A DNA stretch of 64,000 nucleotides from Siphonodentalium dalli (Eukaryota; Mollusca; Scaphopoda; Gadilida; Siphonodentaliidae): NCBI GenBank assembly GCA_032622095.1, contig CP136067.1:131505990-131569989 (forward strand), written 5' to 3'. The notes beneath the pieces were generated by a model. It was not told the origin of the DNA, did no database searches, and was given only the letters and a program-made list of their open reading frames with translations. The first letter of the stretch is position 1. Each line of letters begins with the position of its first letter. This document shows positions 10,843-64,000 of the stretch, in pieces. Both the position numbers and the translations under genes were made by a program.

Positions 10843-11447
10843 AGTCCCATATACGCATAAGTCATTGTATATTCACTAGTCAGTGAGTGGCTTGAGTTTA
10901 CGCCACATATCAACATATTTTTTTACACGGTCATGTGTGCCACGCTTTGCCCAATCCACTATCCGTGAATTATTTTGATTACATCTTGTACGCGGATATT
11001 CGTAATTTAATTTATGACTCCAGCCATAAATTAAATTTATATCAAATTACTAACTTTGATTTTAAGATAACCTATTAACCTGAACGTTTACAGAATACAT
11101 CTTCGACTCAAATTACTTAGTTTTCTATATATTATCGATATTAGATCGTTGTTATCACACCGGGAATTTATTGGAAATGGCGTACAGTACCCATTTAACA
11201 TATAAATACAGTTTATTCATTTCTTCGTACTCTTCTTATATAATGGCGACATTTAACTTGTATAAATTATGTTGTGCATATTTACAAACTGTAAGTGTCT
11301 TGGTCCCTTTAATTCTCGTTTGCTGTTCTCTGTTGTCATCATTTTAACTGACGGTAAGGGTTACACATGTGTCAATCTTGATAGTCCACCCTTTTTTATC
11401 TTAAAATTTGACACCGTACATTGTTGTTGTTTGTTTATTACATTCAG
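10843..11447. other. End of intron 1, no features seen
   Basis: AT-rich. The only supported signal is the exon 2 acceptor and its pyrimidine-rich run-up at the right end. Confidence 0.4.
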
Positions 11448-11552
11448 GTTGTAGTACAATCTTCGACACAATCATGTGCTGGAAGGGAACAGCTGCTGGC
11501 TCAACGTTAACTCAGGGATGTCCGAACTACGTCCAAGGGTTCGTCGTTAATG
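11448..11552 (+). CDS. GPCR exon 2: hormone receptor domain, cysteines 2-4
   Basis: 105 nt after the acceptor cattcag. GT completes the Gly codon begun by exon 1. The peptide carries GCS, then FDTIMCW, an A-G turn and GCPNY, the standard hormone-receptor-domain order (C2, Asp, CW, G, CP.Y). It ends on N-G with one base left over. The donor reads TG followed by GCAAGT, so the following intron is a GC-AG intron; no in-frame GT alternative at this point keeps the motif. An N-G-T glycosylation sequon is formed across the junction with exon 3. A GC-rich minisatellite starts about 50 bp downstream. Confidence 0.92.
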
Positions 11553-11558
11553 GCAAGT
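11553..11558 (+). promoter_or_regulatory. GC-type splice donor of intron 2
   Basis: The exon 2 coding frame ends at AATG followed by GCAAGT. GC-AG introns normally compensate with a strong downstream consensus, and the CAAGT context fits. Chosen because it joins exon 3 in phase and gives the conserved Gly-Thr-Ala-Ser-Arg-Thr-Cys order. Confidence 0.75.
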
Positions 11559-11599
11559 ACATATCAAAGCACCAGGTGCTAAATGTCGGGAACGGGACC

Positions 11600-13640
11600 A
11601 ACCGACCCAGAGGCAACCTGGCGTACCCGATCAAACCGGGACAATTCGACCTGAGACAACCCAACCCAGGGGCAACCCGACCCAGGGACAACCCGACCCG
11701 ATCAAGCCGGGACAATCTGACACGGTACAACCCGACCCAGGGACAACCAAACCCTGGGACAACCCGACCCAGAGACAACCCGACACAATAAAACCTGAAC
11801 AACCCGACCCAGGGACAACCCGACACAGGGACAACCCGACCCAGGGAAAACCGACCCGGATATCCTGACCCGATCAAGCCGGGACAATCTGACACGGTAC
11901 AACCCGACCAGGGACAACCCAACCCTGGGACAACCCGACCCAGAGACAACCCGAAACAATAAAACCAGGACAACCCGACCCAGGGGCAACCCGGCAAAGG
12001 GACAACCCGACCCGATCAAGCCGGGGCAATCTGACACGGTACAACCCGACCCAGGGACAACCCAACCCTGGGACAACCCGACCCAGAGACAACCCGACAC
12101 AATAAAACCTGAACAACCCGACCCAGGGACAACCCGGCACAGGGACAACCCGACCCAGGGAAAACCGACCCGGGACATCCTGACCCGATCAAGCCGGGAC
12201 AATCTGACACGGTACAACCCGACCCAGGGACAACCAAACCCTGGGACAACCCGACCCAGAGACAACCCGACACAATAACACCTGAACAAACCGACCCAGG
12301 GACAACCCGACACAGGGACAACCCGACCCAGGGAAAACCGACCCGGGACATCCTGACCCGATCAAGCCGGGACAATCTGACACGGTACAACCCGACCCAG
12401 GGACAACCCAACCCTGGGACGACCCGACCCAGAGACAACCCGAAACAATAAAACCTGGACAACCCGACCCAGGGGCAACTCGGCAAAGGAACAACCCGAC
12501 CCGATCAAGCCGGGGCAATCTGACACGGTACAATCCGACCCAGGGACAACCCAACCCTGGGACAACCCGACCCAGAGACAACCCGACACAATAAAACCTG
12601 AACAACCCGACCCAGGGACAATCCGGCAAAGGGACAACCCGACCCGATCAAGCCGGGGCAATATGACACGGTACAACCCGACCCAGGGACAACCCAACCC
12701 TGGGACAACCCGACCCAGAGACAACCCGACACAATAAAAACTGAACAACCCGACCCAGGGACAACCCGACACAGGGACAACCCGACCCAGGGAAAACCGA
12801 CCCGGGACACACTGACCCGATCAAGCCGGGACAATCTGACACGGTACAACCCGACCCAGGGACAACCAAACCCTGTGACAATCAGACCCAGAGACAACCG
12901 ACACAATAACACCTGAACAACCCGACCCAGGGACAACCCGACCCAGGGACAACCCGACACAGGGACAACCCGACCCAGTGAAAACCGACCCGGGACATCC
13001 TGACCCGATCAAGCCCGGACAATCTGACACTGTACAACCCGACCCAGGGACAACCCAACCATGGGACAACCCGACCCAGAGACAACCCGAAACAATAAAA
13101 CCTGGACAACCCGACCCAGGGGCAACCCGACACAGGGACAACCCGACCCGATCAAGCCGGGGTAATCTGGCACGGTACAACCCGACCCAGGGACAACCCA
13201 ACCCTGGGACAACCCGACCAGAGACAACCCGACACAATAAAACCTGAACAACCCGACCCAGGGACAATCCGACACAGGGACAACCCGACCCAGGGAAAAC
13301 CGACCCGGGACATCCTGACCCGATCAAGCCGGGACAATCTGACACGGTACAACCCGACTCAGGACAACCCAACCATGGGACAACCCGACCCAGAGACAAC
13401 CCGAAGCAATAAAACCTGGACAACCCGACCCAGGGGCAACCCGGCACAGGGACAACCCGACCCGATCAAGCCGGGACAATCTGACACGGTACAACCCGAC
13501 ACAGGGACAACCCGACCCAGAGAAAACCTAACCCGATAAAACCTGGACTATCCGACACAGGGACAACCCGACCCGGGACATCCCAACCAGAGACAACCCG
13601 ATCCGATAAAACCTGGACAACCCGACACAAATAAGAGATA
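11600..13640. repeat. GC-rich minisatellite with a composite higher-order unit
   Basis: Built from blocks of about 15 bp such as GACCCAGGGACAACCC. The marker GATCAAGCCGG recurs at 11700, 11872, 12014, 12187, 12360, 12503, 12646, 12819, 13007, 13150, 13322 and 13464, giving higher-order lengths of 142-143, 172-173 and one 188. These steps differ by about 30 or 15 bp, as expected if whole blocks are gained or lost. The many overlapping ORFs are by-products of the array. It lies in intron 2, about 50 bp after the GC donor. Confidence 0.95.
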
Positions 13641-13971: not shown

Positions 13972-14572
13972 GGGACAACCCGACCTGGAAGTCTTGACAA
14001 CCCGACCCAAAATACGGCCGGTCGGGTTGTCCCTGTCGGGTTGTCCCTGTCGGTGGACGCGCTTAACGGGTCGGGTTGTCCCTGTCGGGTTGTCCCGACC
14101 CTGTCGGGTTGTTCCTGTCGGTGGACGCGCGGGTCGGGTTGCCCCTGTCGGTGGACGCGCGGGTCGGGTTGTCCCTGTCGGTGGACGCGCGGGTCGGGTT
14201 GTCCCTGTCGGTGGACGCGCGGGTCGGTTTGTCCCTGTCGGTGGACGCGCGGGTCGGGTTGTCCCTGTCGGGTTGTCCCTGTCGGGTTGTCCCTGTCGGG
14301 TTGTCCTGCATGGTCGGGTTGTCCTGATCGGGTTGTCTCTGTCGGTGGACGCGCTGGTCGAGTTGTCCCTGTCGGTGGACGCGCTGGTCGGGTTGTCCCT
14401 GTCGGTGGACGCGCGGGTCGGGTTGTCCCTGTCGGTGGACGCGTGGGTCGGGTTGTCCCTGTCGGTGGACGCGCGGGTCGGGTTGTCCCTGTCGGTGGAC
14501 GCGCTGGTCGGGTTGTCCCTGTCGGTGGACGCGCTGGTCGGGTTGTCCCTGTCGGTGGACGCGCTTAACTAA
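13972..14572. repeat. 30-bp minisatellite, inverted relative to the previous array
   Basis: Unit of 30 bp containing GTCGGGTTGTCCCTGTCGG followed by TGGACGCGC, about 17 units with variants. It holds GTCGGGTTGTCCC, the reverse complement of GGGACAACCCGAC in the 11600-13640 array. A short stretch at 13972-14020 still carries the core in the other orientation. Confidence 0.95.
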
Positions 14573-37994: not shown

Positions 37995-38163
37995 CAAACT
38001 TCACTGCCCAAGAAACATCATTCACATTAACCTGTTCGTGTCATTCATCTTACGAGCTGGAGTATTCTTCCTAAAACAAATTTTATTGGTTCAAGGGGTG
38101 GGCTTGGAATCTGACATCACATACGACGGAGTCGGCAAATTAATATTCAACCCAAACGGAACG
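37995..38163 (+). CDS. GPCR exon 5: ICL1, TM2 and ECL1
   Basis: 169 nt after ttcatttcag. Encodes KLHCPRN, IHINLFVSFILRA and a continuing hydrophobic helix, then an ECL1 rich in G, D and E ending N-P-N-G-T. The R-N-x-I-H-x-N-L-F pattern is the conserved TM2 start in secretin-family receptors, with the key His. The donor is GTATGT at 38164, phase 0. The N-G-T is a likely glycosylation site, completed before exon 6. A diverged copy of the local hairpin MITE sits about 75 bp downstream. Confidence 0.95.
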
Positions 38164-39997: not shown

Positions 39998-40110
39998 TGG
40001 TTCTCTATTCCGAAGGTTCGCTATTCCGAAGGTTCATTGTTCCGAAGGTTCCCTATTCCGAAGGTTCATTATTCCGAAGGTTCGCTATTCCGAAGGTTTT
40101 CTATTCTGGG
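39998..40110. repeat. 15-16 bp tandem repeat ATTCCGAAGGTTCGCT
   Basis: About seven units of ctattccgaaggttc. A second array of six to seven units is at 41273-41375 in the opposite orientation (ccttcggaatagcgaa). Confidence 0.9.
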
Positions 40111-40854: not shown

Positions 40855-41272
40855 AGTCAATACAAAGTCACAATTGCAGTTAGGTTCAACCCATACCCGT
40901 CTATTCAGCGATACAGCTACGCAGTATGTTATGGCGCTCCAGTATTCATTACGCGTTATAGCCCCACTGTTATAATCCGTCTTTATCTGGCGTATTCATA
41001 CCTCTAAGATTATTGGTATATAACATAGTACGTGGTGGCATTAAATCGTATGGAAACGTAGCAATTATGTGGGCTGCGCGACGTGAATACGTATTGAGAA
41101 ATAAAGTCATACGTAATGACATTCAATATCAAGGAAACCAGCGAAAACCAAAACAAAATCACATTTATTGTTTTAATGTTTTAAGTTATTTCCTTCACAA
41201 AAGAGTCTTCGTGATAAGGAACCCTCTCAATACTTTAGAATATAGAATTAACCTTTAAAATAACAAAACCTT

Positions 41273-41375
41273 CGGAATAGCGAACCTTCGGAATAGTGAA
41301 CATTCGGAGTAGCGAACCTTCGGAATAGAGAACCTTCGGAATAGTGAACCTTCGGAATAGCGAACTTTCGGAATA
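41273..41375. repeat. Inverted array of the ATTCCGAAGG repeat
   Basis: aaccttcggaatagcg units, reverse complement of the array at 39998-40110. Together they could close a 1.3-kb stem-loop. Confidence 0.9.
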
Positions 41376-41454
41376 GAGACATGTCCACCTTCTGCAAGTA
41401 TCATTCATATGAACTTTGTTGTCTACATATTTTGGTTCTCGGAACCGGTGACGT

Positions 41455-41926: not shown

Positions 41927-42083
41927 CATTGGGAATGTAAGACACTGGTATCTGTTTATAACTACGTCCATACAGCGAATTATGTCTGGATTATGGTGGA
42001 AGGTCTCTATCTACAAATGTTGCTGTCAGTGACAGTCTTCTCGGAAAAATCGGGCCTCAAGTGGTACATTTTATTCGGATGGA
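41927..42083 (+). CDS. GPCR exon 6: TM3, ICL2, start of TM4
   Basis: 157 nt after the acceptor cattcatttcag. Encodes HWECK, containing the TM3 Cys that pairs with ECL2, then NYVWIMVEGLYL (the class B TM3 signature), ICL2 with FSEKSGLKWY, and FGW at the start of TM4. It ends with one base, A, giving Ser (AGT) across the junction where the family usually has Gly (GWG). The donor is GTGAGT at 42084. The last about 20 nt plus donor and about 30 nt of intron recur at 42551-42602. Confidence 0.96.
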
Positions 42084-44262: not shown

Positions 44263-44335
44263 CATTACGTATCACCCACGATTCTCCGTATTGCGGTAGT
44301 TTCATCATATTTTTCTAACCGTTGGATGTCACTAT

Positions 44336-44734
44336 TTAACCATTTACCCAACAAACCGGCCAAAAACGGCCAAATAAAGCTTCAACAGCCTAAAATATCT
44401 TCGGTCTGTCTCAATAGAACCATACAAATATGGATATCATTGGAACCGGCTCCTTGACCACATTGTGATAGTTACAGTTATGCCCTGTTTCAATGCATTC
44501 TCTTATATATGCGAGTCGACCATAGGTCGCCTCGCATATATAAGAGAATGCATTGGCCTAACAAAAATCTTTATTAACACTTTTTACCATTTTGTCTTAC
44601 ATTCTTTAACAATTTTATAATTTTTAATGTGTTAAGCCAATGCATTCTCTTATATATGCGAGGCGACCTATGGTCGACTCGCATATATAAGAGAATGCAT
44701 TGGCACAGGGCCGTTCTGTTGGATAAAGGGTTAA
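44336..44734. mobile_element. MITE family PB-1, copy h, next to exon 7
   Basis: TTAA on both sides, hairpins at about 44491-44559 and 44637-44703. Its right end is 20 bp from the exon 7 start, so the intron 6 branch point is probably in or right beside the element (candidate CTAAT at 44737-44741). Confidence 0.88.
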
Positions 44735-44754
44735 ATCTAATTATTTTCTTTCAG

Positions 44755-44815
44755 GTTGGCCGCTACTCTTCGTTATTCCTTGGGTCATCGTTCGATCAAC
44801 TCTGGAAGATATATA
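44755..44815 (+). CDS. GPCR exon 7: TM4
   Basis: A 61-nt microexon-like exon, phases 1 to 2. Encodes WPLLFVIPWVIVRSTLEDI, matching the TM4/ECL2 start of class B receptors (GWG.P..FV..W...R). The acceptor is ttattttctttcag, only 20 bp after the end of a MITE. The donor GTAAGT at 44816 is the first of a 32-bp tandem array. Read-through gives TAG at once, so only this first donor keeps the frame to exon 8. Confidence 0.93.
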
Positions 44816-47022
44816 GTAAGTGTGGAGAGTCTGACGAAAGATATATAGCAAGTGTGGAGAGTCTGACGAAAGATATATAGTAAGTGTGGAGAGTCTGACG
44901 AAAGATATATAGTAAGTGTGGAGAGTCTGACGAAAGATATATAGTAAGTGTGGAGAGTCTGACGAAAGATATATAGTAAGTGTGGAGAGTCTGACGAAAG
45001 ATATATAGTAAGTGTGGAGAGTCTGACGAAAGATATATAGTAAGTGTGGAGAGTCTGACGAAAGATATCTAGTAAGTGTGGAGAGTCTGACGAAAGATAT
45101 ATAGTAAGTGTGGCGAGTTTGACGAAAGATATCTAGTAAGTGTGGAGAGTCTGACGAAAGATATATAGTAAGTGTGGCGAGTTTGACGAAAGATATAAAG
45201 TAAGTGTGGAGAGTCTGACGAAAGATATATAGTAAGTGTGGAGAGTCTGACGAAAGATATCTAGTAAGTGTGGAGAGTCTGACGAAAGATATATAGTAAG
45301 TGTGGAGAGTCTGACGAAAGATATCTAGTAAGTGTGGAGAGTCTGACGAAAGATATATAGTAAGTGTGGAGAGTCTGACGAAAGATATATAGTAAGTGTG
45401 GAGAGTCTGACGAAATATATCTAGTAAGTGTGGAGAGTCTGACGAAAGATATCTAGTAAGTGTGGAGAGTCTGGCGAAAGATATCTAGTAAGTTTGGAGA
45501 GTCTGACGAAAGATATCTAGTAAGTGTGGAGAGTCTGACGAAAGGTATCTAGTAAGTGTGGAGTCTGACGAAAGGTATCTAGTAAGTGTGGAGAGTCTAT
45601 CGAAAGATATATAGTAAGTGTGGAGAGTCTGACGAAAGATATATAGTAAGTGTGGAGAGTCTGACGAAAGATATATAGTAAGTGTGGAGAGTCTGACGAA
45701 AGATATATAGTAAGTGTGGAGAGTCTGACGAAAGATATATAGTAAGTGTGGAGAGTCTGACGAAAGATATATAGTAAGTGTGGAGAGTCTGACGAAAGAT
45801 ATCTAGTAAGTGTGGATCGAGAGTCTGACGAAAGATATCTAGTAAGTGTGGAGAGTCTATCGAAAGATATATAGTAAGTGTGGAGAGTCTGACGAAAGAT
45901 ATCTAGTAAGTGTGGAGAGTCTGACGAAAGATATCTAGTAAGTGTGGAGAGTCTGGCGAAAGATATCTAGTAAGTTTGGAGAGTCTGACGAAAGATATCT
46001 AGTAAGTGTGGAGAGTCTGACGAAAGGTATCTAGTAAGTGTGGAGTCTGACGAAAGGTATCTAGTAAGTGTGGAGAGTCTATCGAAAGATATATAGTAAG
46101 TGTGGAGAGTCTGACGAAAGATATATAGAAAGTGTGGAGAGTCTGACGAAAGATATATAGTAAGTGTGGAGAGTCTGACGAAAGATATATAGTAAGTGTG
46201 GAGAGTCTGACGAAAGATATATAGTAACTGTGGAGAGTCTGACGAAAGATATCTAGTAAGTGTGGAGAGTCTGACGAAAGATATCTAGTAAGTGTGGAGA
46301 GTCTATCGAAAGATATATAGTAAGTGTGGAGAGTCTGACGAAAGACATATAGTAAGTGTGGAGAGTCTGACGAAAGATATATAGTAAGTGTGGAGAGTCT
46401 GACGAAAGATATCTAGTAAGTGTGGAGAGTCTGACGAAAGATATCTAGTAAGTGTGGAGAGTCTATCGAAAGATATATAGTAAGTGTGGAGAGTCTGACG
46501 AAAGATATATAGTAAGTGTGGAGAGTCTGACGAAAGATATCTAGTAAGTGTGGATCGAGAGTCTGACGAAAGATATCTAGTAAGTGTGGAGAGTCTATCG
46601 AAAGATATATAGTAAGTGTGGAGAGTCTGACGAAAGATATATAGTAAGTGTGGAGAGTCTGGCGGAAGATATATAGTAAGTGTGGAGAATCTGACGAAAG
46701 ATATATAGTAAGTGTGGAGAGTCTGACGAAAGATATCTAGTAAGTGTGGAGAGTCTGACGAAAGATATCTAGTAAGTGTGGAGAGTCTATCGAAAGATAT
46801 ATAGTAAGTGTGGAGAGTCTGACGAAAGATATATAGTAAGTATGGAGAGTCTGACGGAAGATAATAGTAAATGTGGAGAGTCTGACGAAAGATATCTAGT
46901 AAGTGTGGAGAGTCTATCGAAAGATATATAGTAAGTGTGGAGAGTCTGAAGAAAGATATATAGTAAGTGTGGAGAGTCTGACGAAAGATATATAGTAAGT
47001 GTGGAGAGTCTGACGAAAGAGA
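44808..47022. repeat. 32-bp minisatellite, about 69 copies, derived from the exon 7 donor
   Basis: Unit gatatatagtaagtgtgg + agagtctgacgaaa (32 bp). The first unit contains the genuine exon 7 end and donor (gaagatata ta/GTAAGT). Nearly all units keep GTAAGT. Variants (gatatctag, tctatcgaaag, a 30-bp unit, a 36-bp gtggatcgagag unit) recur together, showing that multi-unit blocks were duplicated. Minus-strand 273-codon ORF is a by-product: three 32-bp units equal 32 codons. Confidence 0.97.
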
Positions 47023-48330: not shown

Positions 48331-48400
48331 CTGCTGGAGTACACACCCGACAAAAGGATACTTCTGGATTTTGAAAGGACCAATATCAGCAACGATCGTT
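48331..48400 (+). CDS. GPCR exon 8: ECL2 Cys-Trp and start of TM5
   Basis: 70 nt from acceptor ttacttctag to a GTGAGT donor at 48401. The first C completes the Tyr codon (TA from exon 7), then CWSTHP, Y-F-W-I-L-K-G-P and a hydrophobic ending ISATIV, matching the class B ECL2 CW and the W.I..P...S I..N approach to TM5. Ends in phase 0. I found no following exon in the rest of the window, so TM5-TM7 and the C-tail probably lie downstream. Confidence 0.92.
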
Positions 48401-49464
48401 GTGAGTATATACTTAATATCTATATCAGCAACGACGCTCGTGTATTTTATTTATGCCACAATGATTCATTTAGATTTTTTTATCACAGCCATTTGATATC
48501 CCCATCCAGATATTTCCTAGTTCATATAACAATAGCAATCTGCGTTGATTGATACGCAGGCAATTTTCTTCATATTTGATTGATTTCATAACTACTTCCC
48601 ATTTTAAAGGAATATGTAACAAAGCAAATATTTTGCTAACTAAGATGTAGTTCTATTTTGGGTATAACAGTTTAACCCATGAAATGACGTTTGAATATTT
48701 ACACCCAAAGTAGAAATGTATTCCCACAGTAGGGGTGACGAACAAAATGTGTGGTATACACAACCTAGCATAGACAATTATGGTGTAAATACATTCATTG
48801 ATCAATAACAAAATATTGTTTATTTGTATGCCACCTCATGTGTGGAGTCTCTGTGATAGCGTTCTTTGTGTTAAGAGGGAGGTAAAGTGGAAACATTTGA
48901 ATGGGGAATTCAGTGTTAATTTTTTAGAAAGTTTCAAGACTTATCTAGTGACAACGCGAAGCGGAATTTTTATTTTCATCCCAGGTTGGATAGTATTTGA
49001 CATTATTAAAAAGTAGGTCACCATTGTTTATCATTGTTTATAATATTTCCATCACATGTCACAAATCAAAACATAAAATGAAAATTACGCTTTGCGTTGT
49101 CACTAGATATGAAGACATGAAGTATTGTTTTAAGGTTTGTAAATATTGAGTGATATTATCTTGAAAATTAACACTGAATTCCCCATTATATGTTGCCACT
49201 TTACACCTCTTAATTCTGGAATCCGACGTGTATTTGCAGATAAATTTCGGCTTCTTCTGCAACATTATAAGAATACTATTCACAAAGCTACATGCAGTAA
49301 ATTCACCCGAAGCCAGAAAATACAGGTATAAGTAAGTATAGTTTGTCATTTGTTAGCATTCATTGAACATTGCATATGTTTGCCCTCAAGCCGTCTTGGT
49401 ATTTCTATGTTAACGCCTCTGAACGAGAAACATTAAACAACTTTATGTTAATCATTTATATGCT
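48401..49464. other. Start of intron 8, inverted repeat only
   Basis: gggaattcagtgttaatttt (48903) and its reverse form aaaattaacactgaattccc (49164) form a wide imperfect inverted repeat (about 48870-49200). No TM5 exon seen. Confidence 0.5.
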
Positions 49465-61427: not shown

Positions 61428-61493
61428 TTAACACGTCCATGACTGGAGCTTCCTGAAACGTTGCGAAACCCTGTACCAATGCATTCTCTTATA
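61428..61493. mobile_element. MITE family PB-3 left end, seed of the satellite
   Basis: TTAACACGTCCATGACTGGA, gcttcctgaaacgttgcgaa, then accctgtaccaatgcattct, the first array unit. The element never reaches the hairpin centre; the array replaces it. Confidence 0.85.
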
Positions 61494-64000
61494 AACCCTG
61501 TACCAATGCATTCTCTTATAAACCCTGTACCAATGCATTCTCTTATAAACCCTGTACCAATGCATTCTCTTATAAACCCTGTACCAATGCATTCTCTTAT
61601 AAACCCTGTACCAACGCATTCTCTTATAAACCCTGTACCAATGCATTCTCTTATAAACCCTGTACCAACGCATTCTCTTATAAACCCTGTACCAACGCAT
61701 TCTCTTATAAACCCTGTACCAACGCATTCTCTTATAAACCCTGTACCAATGCATTCTCTTATAAACCCTTTACCATGCATTCTCTTATGAACCCTGTACC
61801 AACGCATTCTCTTATAAACCCTGTACCAAGGCATTCTCTTATAAACCCTGTACCAATGCATTCTCATATAAACCCTGTACCAATGCATTCTCTTATAAAC
61901 CCTGTACCAATGCATTCTCTTATAAACCCTGTACCAATGCATTCTCTTATAAACCCTGTACCAATGCTTTCTCTTATAAACCCTGTACCAATGCATTCTC
62001 TTATAAACCCTGTACCAATGCATTCTCTTATAAACCCTGTACCAATGCATTCTCTTATAAACCCTGTACCAATGCATTCTCTTATAAACCCTGTACCAAT
62101 GCATTCTCTTATAAACCCTGTACCAATGCATTCTCTTATAAACCCTGTACCAACGCATTCTCTTATAAACCCTGTACCAACGCATTCTCTTATAAACCCT
62201 GTACCAACGCATTCCCTTATAAACCCTGTACCAATGCATTCTCTTATAAACCCTTTACCATGCATTCTCTTATAAACCCTGTACCAACGCATTCTCTTAT
62301 AAACCCTGTACAAATGCATTCTCTTATAAACCCTGTACCAATGCATTCTCTTATAAACCCTGTACCAAGGCATTCTCTTATAAACCCTGTACCAATGCAT
62401 TCTCTTATAAACCCTGTACCAATGCATTCTCTTATAAACCCTGTACCAATGCTTTATCTTATAAACCATGTACCAATGCTTTCTCTTATAAACCCTGTAC
62501 CAACGCATTCTCTTATAAACCCTGTACCAATGCATTCTCTTATAAACCCTGTACCAATGCATTCTCTTATAAACCCTGTACCAAAGCATTCTCTTATAAA
62601 CCCTGTACCAATGCATTCTCTTATAAACCCTGTACCAATGCATTCTCTTATAAACCCTGTACCAATGCATTCTCTTATAAACCCTGTACCAATACATTCT
62701 CTTATAAATCCTGTACCAATGCATTCTCTTATAAACCCTGTACCAATGCATTCTCTTATAAACCCTGTACCAATGCATTCTCTTATAAACCCTGTACCAA
62801 TGCATTCTCTTATAAACCCTGTACCAATGCATTCTCTTATAAACCCTGTATCAATGCATTCTCTTATAAACCCTGTACCAATGCATTCTCTTATAAACCC
62901 TGTACCATAGCATTCTCTTATAAACCCTGTACCAATGCATTCTCTTATAAACCCTGTACCAATGCATTCTTTTATAAACCCTGTACCAATGCATTCTCTT
63001 ATAAACCCTGTACCAAGGCATTCTCTCATAAACCCTGTACCAATGCATTCTCTTATAAACCCTGTACCAATGCATTCTCTTATAAACCCTGTACCAATGC
63101 ATTATCTTATAAACCCTGTACCAACGCATTCTCTTATAAACCCTGTACCAACGCATTCTCTTATAAACCCTGTATCAATGCATTCTCTTATAAACCCTGT
63201 ACCAATGCATTCTCTTATAAACCCTGTACCATGGCATTCTCTTATAAACCCTGTACCAATGCATTCTCTTATAAACCCTGTACCAATGCATTCTTTTATA
63301 AACCCTGTACCAATGCATTCTCTTATAAACCCTGTACCAAGGCATTCTCTCATAAACCCTGTACCAATGCATTCTCTTATAAACCCTGTACCAATGCATT
63401 CTCTTATAAACCCTGTACCAATGCATTATCTTATAAACCCTGTACCAACGCATTCTCTTATAAACCCTGTACCAATGCATTCTCTTATAAACCCTGTACC
63501 AATGCATTCTCTTATAAACCCTGTACCAATGCATTCTCTTATAAACCCTGTACCAATGCATTCTCTTATAAACCCTGTACCAATGCATTCTCTTATAAAC
63601 CCTGTACCAATGCATTCTCTTATAAACCCTGTACCAACGCATTCTCTTATAAACCCTGTACCAACGCATTCTCTTATAAACTCTGTACCAACGCATTCTC
63701 TTATAAACCCTGTACCAATGCATTCTCTTATAAACCCTTTACCATGCATTCTCTTATAAACCCTGTACCAACGCATTCTCTTATAAACCCTGTACAAATG
63801 CATTCTCTTATAAACCCTGTACCAATGCATTCTCTTATAAACCCTGTACCAAGGCATTCTCTTATAAACCCTGTACCAATGCATTCTCTTATAAACCCTG
63901 TACCAATGCATTCTCTTATAAACCCTGTACCAATGCTTTCTCTTATAAACCATGTACCAATGCTTTCTCTTATAAACCCTGTACCAACGCATTCTCTTAT
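61470..64000. repeat. 27-bp satellite derived from the PB-3 MITE end, continuing past the window
   Basis: Unit ccctgtaccaatgcattctc + ttataaa, about 93 copies in the window. Point variants (caacgc, caaggc, tgctttc) and one 26-bp unit (ccctttaccatgcattctc) recur at matching spacings, so larger blocks have duplicated. Because 27 is a multiple of three, both strands stay open for hundreds of codons (nine-residue repeats), which is not evidence of coding. Confidence 0.97.

Follow-up and report, generated by a model that had tools for sequence, protein, structure and literature searches.

The window analysed here, a stretch of 64,000 nucleotides from the scaphopod mollusc Siphonodentalium dalli (GenBank assembly GCA_032622095.1, contig CP136067.1, positions 131,505,990 to 131,569,989 of the forward strand), carries exons of a secretin-family (class B) receptor gene, one of which runs directly into a minisatellite with units that repeat the junction between this exon and the following intron. 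This minisatellite was probably born by tandem duplication over the exon-intron junction, having no selected role and leaving the first donor as the one that is normally used. It is best read as a large representative of the minisatellites known as mirages in amphioxus, such junction duplications being not rare in this genome, and in all likelihood it arose as a harmless side effect of the abundance of tandem repeats there.

By cutting the array into units, 69 full head-to-tail units of about 32 bp can be delimited on the forward strand between positions 44806 and 47016 in the one haplotype of the one assembly considered, and Tandem Repeats Finder (TRF) reports the array at 44806-47020 with a period of 32, 69.1 copies, 94% matches and a score of 3847. 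Exceptions to the unit length of 32 bp are two units of 36 bp, two of 30 bp and one of 31 bp. The first unit is identical to the consensus, which is common to 30 of the 69 units, and is composed of the last 10 coding bases of the exon and 22 bases of the intron, including the donor of the exon itself. GTAAGT is kept at the donor position of 65 of the 69 units, the altered ones reading GCAAGT (unit 2, 44848), GAAAGT (46128), GTAACT (46224) and GTAAAT (46867), the last of which also carries a deletion of one base. On the forward strand of the window there are in total 7 GTAAGT outside the array, and ACTTAC, the minus-strand donor word, is absent from the forward strand of the array. Since some of the 20 distinct unit types return in blocks, and since the match from unit to unit is highest between units lying 15 and 23 places apart, the array appears to have been homogenised recently. 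The original prediction for this stretch, an about 69-fold tandem array with about 65 consensus donors at 44806-47022, thus holds with respect to copy number and start; its end has to be moved, as the full units stop at 47016 and an AAGA remnant at 47020.

With respect to the host gene, a 7tm_2 search finds exons within the window as well as some 13 kb beyond it on the downstream side, and six exons join into one open frame of 229 residues with GT and AG at every junction. The spliced 229-residue region matches 7tm_2 at 1.8e-60 with 204.7 bits, the curated cut-off being 20.6, and its best match in the PDB is PTH1R (9.7e-51), followed by the secretin receptor (5.2e-50); judged by this predicted product, the host gene is a secretin-family receptor. 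The exon at 48331 was located by searching for an acceptor behind which the interrupted codon is completed and Cys-Trp follows (AG/C TGC TGG), a hallmark of class B receptors, and the array-bearing exon (44755-44815) joins this exon (48331-48400) in phase 2 (LEDI-Y-CW). Reading frame, phase and the paralogue described below all agree with the earlier claim that the array is in register with the genuine exon-intron junction at 44815/44816. A match to the hormone-receptor domain further upstream probably represents an exon of the same gene, and if so the gene would span at least 65 kb.

A paralogue on C8 shows the same layout for these exons, with a fourth transmembrane helix (TM4) exon that is also 61 nt long and has identical phases. 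This exon ends with ATT/GTAAGTAT, the next one begins with A/TGT TGG, and TRF finds nothing at the donor, the sole repeat in that intron being a two-copy one about 1.2 kb in. Because this paralogue, where no array is present, agrees with the focal gene in junction and in the 61-nt exon, the focal donor is older than its array; presumably it occupies a shared, ancestral position from which the array grew. The boundaries of the paralogous exon were taken by reading the sequence directly; a scoring scan for TM4 exons missed the focal exon, which served as positive control, and ranked the paralogous stretch sixth with wrong boundaries, and tblastn searches that used distant paralogues as queries gave too much noise to be of use. 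As to how the array arose, AAGA is found at both of its edges, a pattern that an initial duplication by slippage on short direct repeats would leave. Probably, two AAGA words spaced by about 32 bp allowed such slippage across the junction, and the duplicated junction would then have been amplified and homogenised inside the array.

Later donors of consensus sequence are, on computed pairing with U1 small nuclear RNA, about as good as the array-free donors compared. There are 42 matches to the U1 gene, and the three copies that were read begin with ATACTTACCTG; 17 U1 matches stand in tandem at C1:103842444-103879156, spaced by about 2.15 kb with one double gap. With pairing energies computed without modified bases, the consensus unit reaches -7.5 kcal/mol and the main variant unit the same value, compared to -7.5 kcal/mol for the donor after the exon at 49240-49331, -7.3 kcal/mol for that of the C8 paralogue and -3.3 kcal/mol for the GC donor of unit 2; the array unit is a plausible candidate U1 site. 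All consensus units share one local sequence from -10 to +22, so that position must decide between them. If later GTAAGT donors were used, the exon would grow in steps to 125, 157 or 189 nt and, at the far end of the array, to 2240 nt, and every one of these versions would, as predicted, run immediately into an in-frame TAG (44814-44816) ending the receptor after TM4. Normally the acceptor at 44755 would be paired with the first donor, by exon definition and with some help from unit 2, whose GC donor is weak.

These properties lend some support to a rival explanation, according to which the array is a length-dependent attenuator: later donors would compete with the first, adding 32n bases and the TAG, the transcripts would be destroyed or yield a four-helix fragment, and a longer array would mean less receptor. 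Apart from the 65 donors in mostly identical local context and the TAG behind each later one, it can be held in its favour that 125 to 189 nt are usual exon sizes for exon definition. Moreover, there is a human precedent of the same architecture. The variable number tandem repeat in intron 18 of ABCA7 is reported to have a 25-bp unit that includes the exon-18 donor, to comprise up to about 427 units, and to give rise to retention of one unit, and hence a premature stop, in about 2% of transcripts; with increasing length, expression falls and the following exon is skipped more often, whereas unit retention does not rise (PMC5954066). In both cases the unit adjoins the exon, holds the donor and is not a multiple of 3, and its retention leads, or here would lead, to a premature stop. 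However, GT opens the ABCA7 array at the intron edge whereas the focal unit includes 10 coding bases, and the splicing effects in ABCA7 have been measured whereas those of the focal array are predictions. By analogy with ABCA7, leaky use of later donors is possible and a small leak plausible, by which a minor fraction of the transcripts might be spliced from these donors and stop at the TAG; that the unit-retaining isoform there stays at about 2% irrespective of length argues in turn against attenuation by this route. Amphioxus mirages are likewise said to leave normal splicing undisturbed (PMC3087553).

Two comparisons, one of the donor columns with other columns and one of junction copying with its background, weigh further against an attenuator; these two and the frequency of GTAAGT arrays in the genome also lend no support to the suggestions of the original prediction that the array might trap U1, buffer donor choice or act as a length switch. 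Counted by variant types, the 6 donor columns of the unit carry 4 and the 26 other columns 18, and 20 of the 32 six-column blocks show as few or fewer types than the donor block; extra constraint on the donor columns finds no support in this count. In the genome at large, three GTAAGT at a spacing of 4-34 bases give 24,680 matches compared to 36,991 for the pattern reversed, overlapping matches in long arrays being scored separately, and GTAAGT arrays are therefore common but not favoured. Tandem arrays as such (period of at least 10, at least 3 copies, score of at least 80) were counted 16 times within the window, and another 16 came from 78.6 kb outside it, where this makes about 1 per 4.9 kb.

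Junction copying was also compared with its background in a sample of 36 donor junctions from exons of related receptors, hand-picked from 138 7tm_2 matches and hence not random, from which three loci without a clear donor (L050, L057 and L070) were dropped. Donors were set by a simple score near the end of the match, with exon joining for the C8 paralogue exon (L074) only, and control 36-mers were drawn at steps of 20 bases in presumed intron, the first of them 60 bases downstream of the donor. A downstream copy, defined as a match of 27/36 bases or better no more than 600 bases away, was found for 4 of 33 junctions, which are not independent (L067 and L068 are identical, L047/L049 and L040/L045 recent copies, L069 and L072 81% alike), and for 135 of 1030 controls, a rough rate given that long arrays supply many control 36-mers and that control matches of at least 28/36 occur in 15 loci. 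At other thresholds the numbers for junctions and controls are 4 and 170 (24/36) and 2 and 88 (30/36). In this small sample, junctions are therefore copied about as frequently as other downstream sequence. Taken together, attenuation is an unlikely explanation, and similarly doubtful is the wider proposition that this lineage repeatedly catches 5' splice sites in tandem duplications, that the donor string of the receptor leaks measurably and that array length sets its output among individuals.

The copied junctions themselves show how such arrays vary. A TRF screen of the 36 junctions revealed 2 arrays crossing a junction and 3 nearby, overlooking the one at L040, which came to light in the 36-mer test. 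Including the original, there are 5 junction copies at L053 (C8:21.81 Mb), 4 of them with GTAAGT; 4 at L059 (C8:106.05 Mb), the three later ones with GTGTGT; 16 at L045 (C8:179.61 Mb), 13 of them changed to GTAGGT; and 2 at L040 (C8:179.24 Mb), both with GTAAGT. At these loci U1 pairing of GTAGGT is nearly equal (-10.0 vs. -10.3) and that of GTGTGT weaker (-7.8 vs. -12.3). L040 and L045 form a recent duplicate pair, the flanks of which show identities of 98% (311 bases) and 95% (517 bases), and as one of their arrays has nonetheless changed by 14 units since the split, junction arrays change length fast, although growth or shrinkage cannot be told from this pair.

A number of observations do not sit easily with an entirely neutral junction duplication. 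The focal array exceeds the other junction arrays found in size, and the copies in two of these (L059 and L045) are mostly altered to GTGTGT or GTAGGT. Counted by cells, variants take up 4 cells of the donor block, and no more than 5 of the 32 six-column blocks are as low, the counts of the other columns being inflated by spreading variants, one of which reaches 27 units. The donor-breaking variants are singletons in 4 of 4 cases as opposed to 11 of 18 other types that have spread (one-sided p = 0.045 in an unplanned test), which could be a hint of selection or merely mean that these mutations are recent. The nearest competitor, unit 2, is one of the 4 broken among the 68 later units, a coincidence of about 6%. 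Furthermore, we infer the use of the first donor from the sequence, and 16 bp of the unit recur both in a dispersed repeat and in another array of 32-bp period (C7:207.9 Mb), so that part of its intronic half may have been imported. Cell counts, singletons and the broken unit 2 amount to weak hints against full neutrality, and the neutral reading is kept.

The shared 16 bp, together with the dispersed repeat lying just upstream of the exon at 44333-44737, might also suggest that the array, or a mobile element bearing it, landed at the end of the exon and brought a new donor with it. An insertion would hardly have preserved donor position, exon length and phase as they are in the array-free C8 paralogue, and the AAGA at both edges is what slippage predicts; this origin is accordingly very improbable. 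In particular, a dispersed family of donor arrays, with the 32-bp array at C7:207.9 Mb and a 29-bp array at C2:202.6 Mb as members, was considered and rejected, both resemblances being put down to coincidence or, at the very most, to some borrowing of sequence. The 16-bp core shared with the former sits, among the matches listed out of 137 in total, in a dispersed, coding-like repeat, and the donor half of the unit, allowing a flexible gap, occurs outside the array at 20 places in 6 clusters compared to 7 matches of the reversed control, so that it does not make up a large family. The 29-bp array (C2:202567310-202567470, L018) has 6 units, each with AAGATAGTAAGTGTGG, the donor half of which resembles the focal unit. 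Finally, long arrays are difficult to assemble and this one is known from a single assembly, but an inflated copy number or a mis-joined gene fragment is hardly credible in view of the 20 distinct unit types, some in recurring blocks, the coherent gene on both sides and the junction arrays at other loci.

The preferred reading, a duplicated junction that expanded, places the array as a long example of an already known kind of repeat. In the human gene IFI6 (6-16/G1P3), the minisatellite unit is 12 bp long and in frame, so that isoforms gain residues, whereas the focal unit of 32 bp would lead to an immediate stop. Two downstream repeat units of this minisatellite, reportedly studied by Turri et al. 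in 1995, act as donors in IFI6 and three mRNA species result (PMC4526556); the focal units would, if used, be alternative donors likewise. The mirages of amphioxus are tandem repeats across exon-intron boundaries in Adh3 and the globin genes BflGb6 and BflGb9; their units have 10-72 bp in Adh3 and about 150-160 bp in the globin genes, with BflGb6 haplotypes of 6 and 3 units (PMC3087553). The focal array likewise extends across an exon-intron boundary, but it comprises 69 units of 32 bp, lies at a donor and belongs to another gene family. Repeats at exon-intron boundaries are also treated in a survey of human segmental duplications (PMC2812944). That few minisatellites bearing a donor are known, as had been remarked at the outset, remains correct, though published cases do exist.

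In turn, 65 near-identical donors behind one exon constitute a natural competition experiment on the choice of 5' splice sites, in which position and exon definition must decide, as the local sequence is nearly the same throughout. The related loci with 2, 4, 5 and 16 junction copies add a graded series from a single genome, in which duplications of junctions seem to happen often and to be tolerated. If later donors leak, the length of the array would act as a simple and variable dial for the output of a signalling receptor; a comparable argument has been made with regard to Alzheimer's disease for the repeat of ABCA7.

Table 1. Receptor exons, array and neighbouring features, in coordinates of the window (the sixth exon in coordinates extended past its end); a slash marks a splice junction.
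Feature	Position	Strand	Basis
Hormone-receptor-domain match (PF02793, E 1.9e-5)	11444-11566	+	Profile match
Exon, TM1-TM2	37995-38163	+	7tm_2 match, exon joining
Exon before the array-bearing exon, TM3	41927-42083	+	7tm_2 match, exon joining
Dispersed repeat copy, palindromic inside; its end lies about 17-20 bases upstream of the TM4 exon	44333-44737	.	Read directly
Exon with array, 61 nt, TM4; last 10 bases open unit 1	44755-44815	+	Exon joining, C8 paralogue
Minisatellite, 69 units, unit AAGATATATAGTAAGTGTGGAGAGTCTGACGA of 32 bp	44806-47016	+	Unit splitting, TRF
TAG, in frame when any later donor is used	44814-44816	+	Read directly
5' splice site GTAAGT, context ATA/GTAAGTGT	44816-44821	+	U1 pairing, phase-2 join to 48331-48400
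Unit 2, nearest competitor, GC donor (GCAAGT at 44848-44853)	44838-44869	+	Unit splitting, U1 pairing
AAGA remnant at right array edge, same word as at the start of unit 1	47017-47020	+	Read directly
Next exon, beginning C/TGCTGG (Tyr completed, then Cys-Trp)	48331-48400	+	Acceptor search, exon joining
Following exon, TM5/intracellular loop 3	49240-49331	+	Exon joining
Sixth joined exon	76812-76950		Exon joining

Besides the focal array, the window contains several other repeats. The dispersed repeat of 44333-44737 has 8 further near-full copies in it, and similar stretches are found in introns of the C8 paralogue. At 61466-64000 there is a 27-bp array with 94 copies in the window, which runs on into locus L013 from its first base; L013 opens with the 27-bp unit, and the first TRF array there ends at 732. 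The 27-bp unit contains CCAATGCATTCTCTTAT, the arm of a palindromic dispersed repeat, and this 17-mer occurs 43 times, on both strands, before 61460. An inverted pair of arrays at 11625-13528 and 14021-14565 is about 67% alike, the first starting about 58 bases past the hormone-receptor-domain match. Two arrays with 16-bp units at 39999-40106 and 41267-41376, inverted with respect to each other, about 1.2 kb apart and about 91% alike, resemble terminal inverted repeats built from tandem units, in the manner of Foldback elements.
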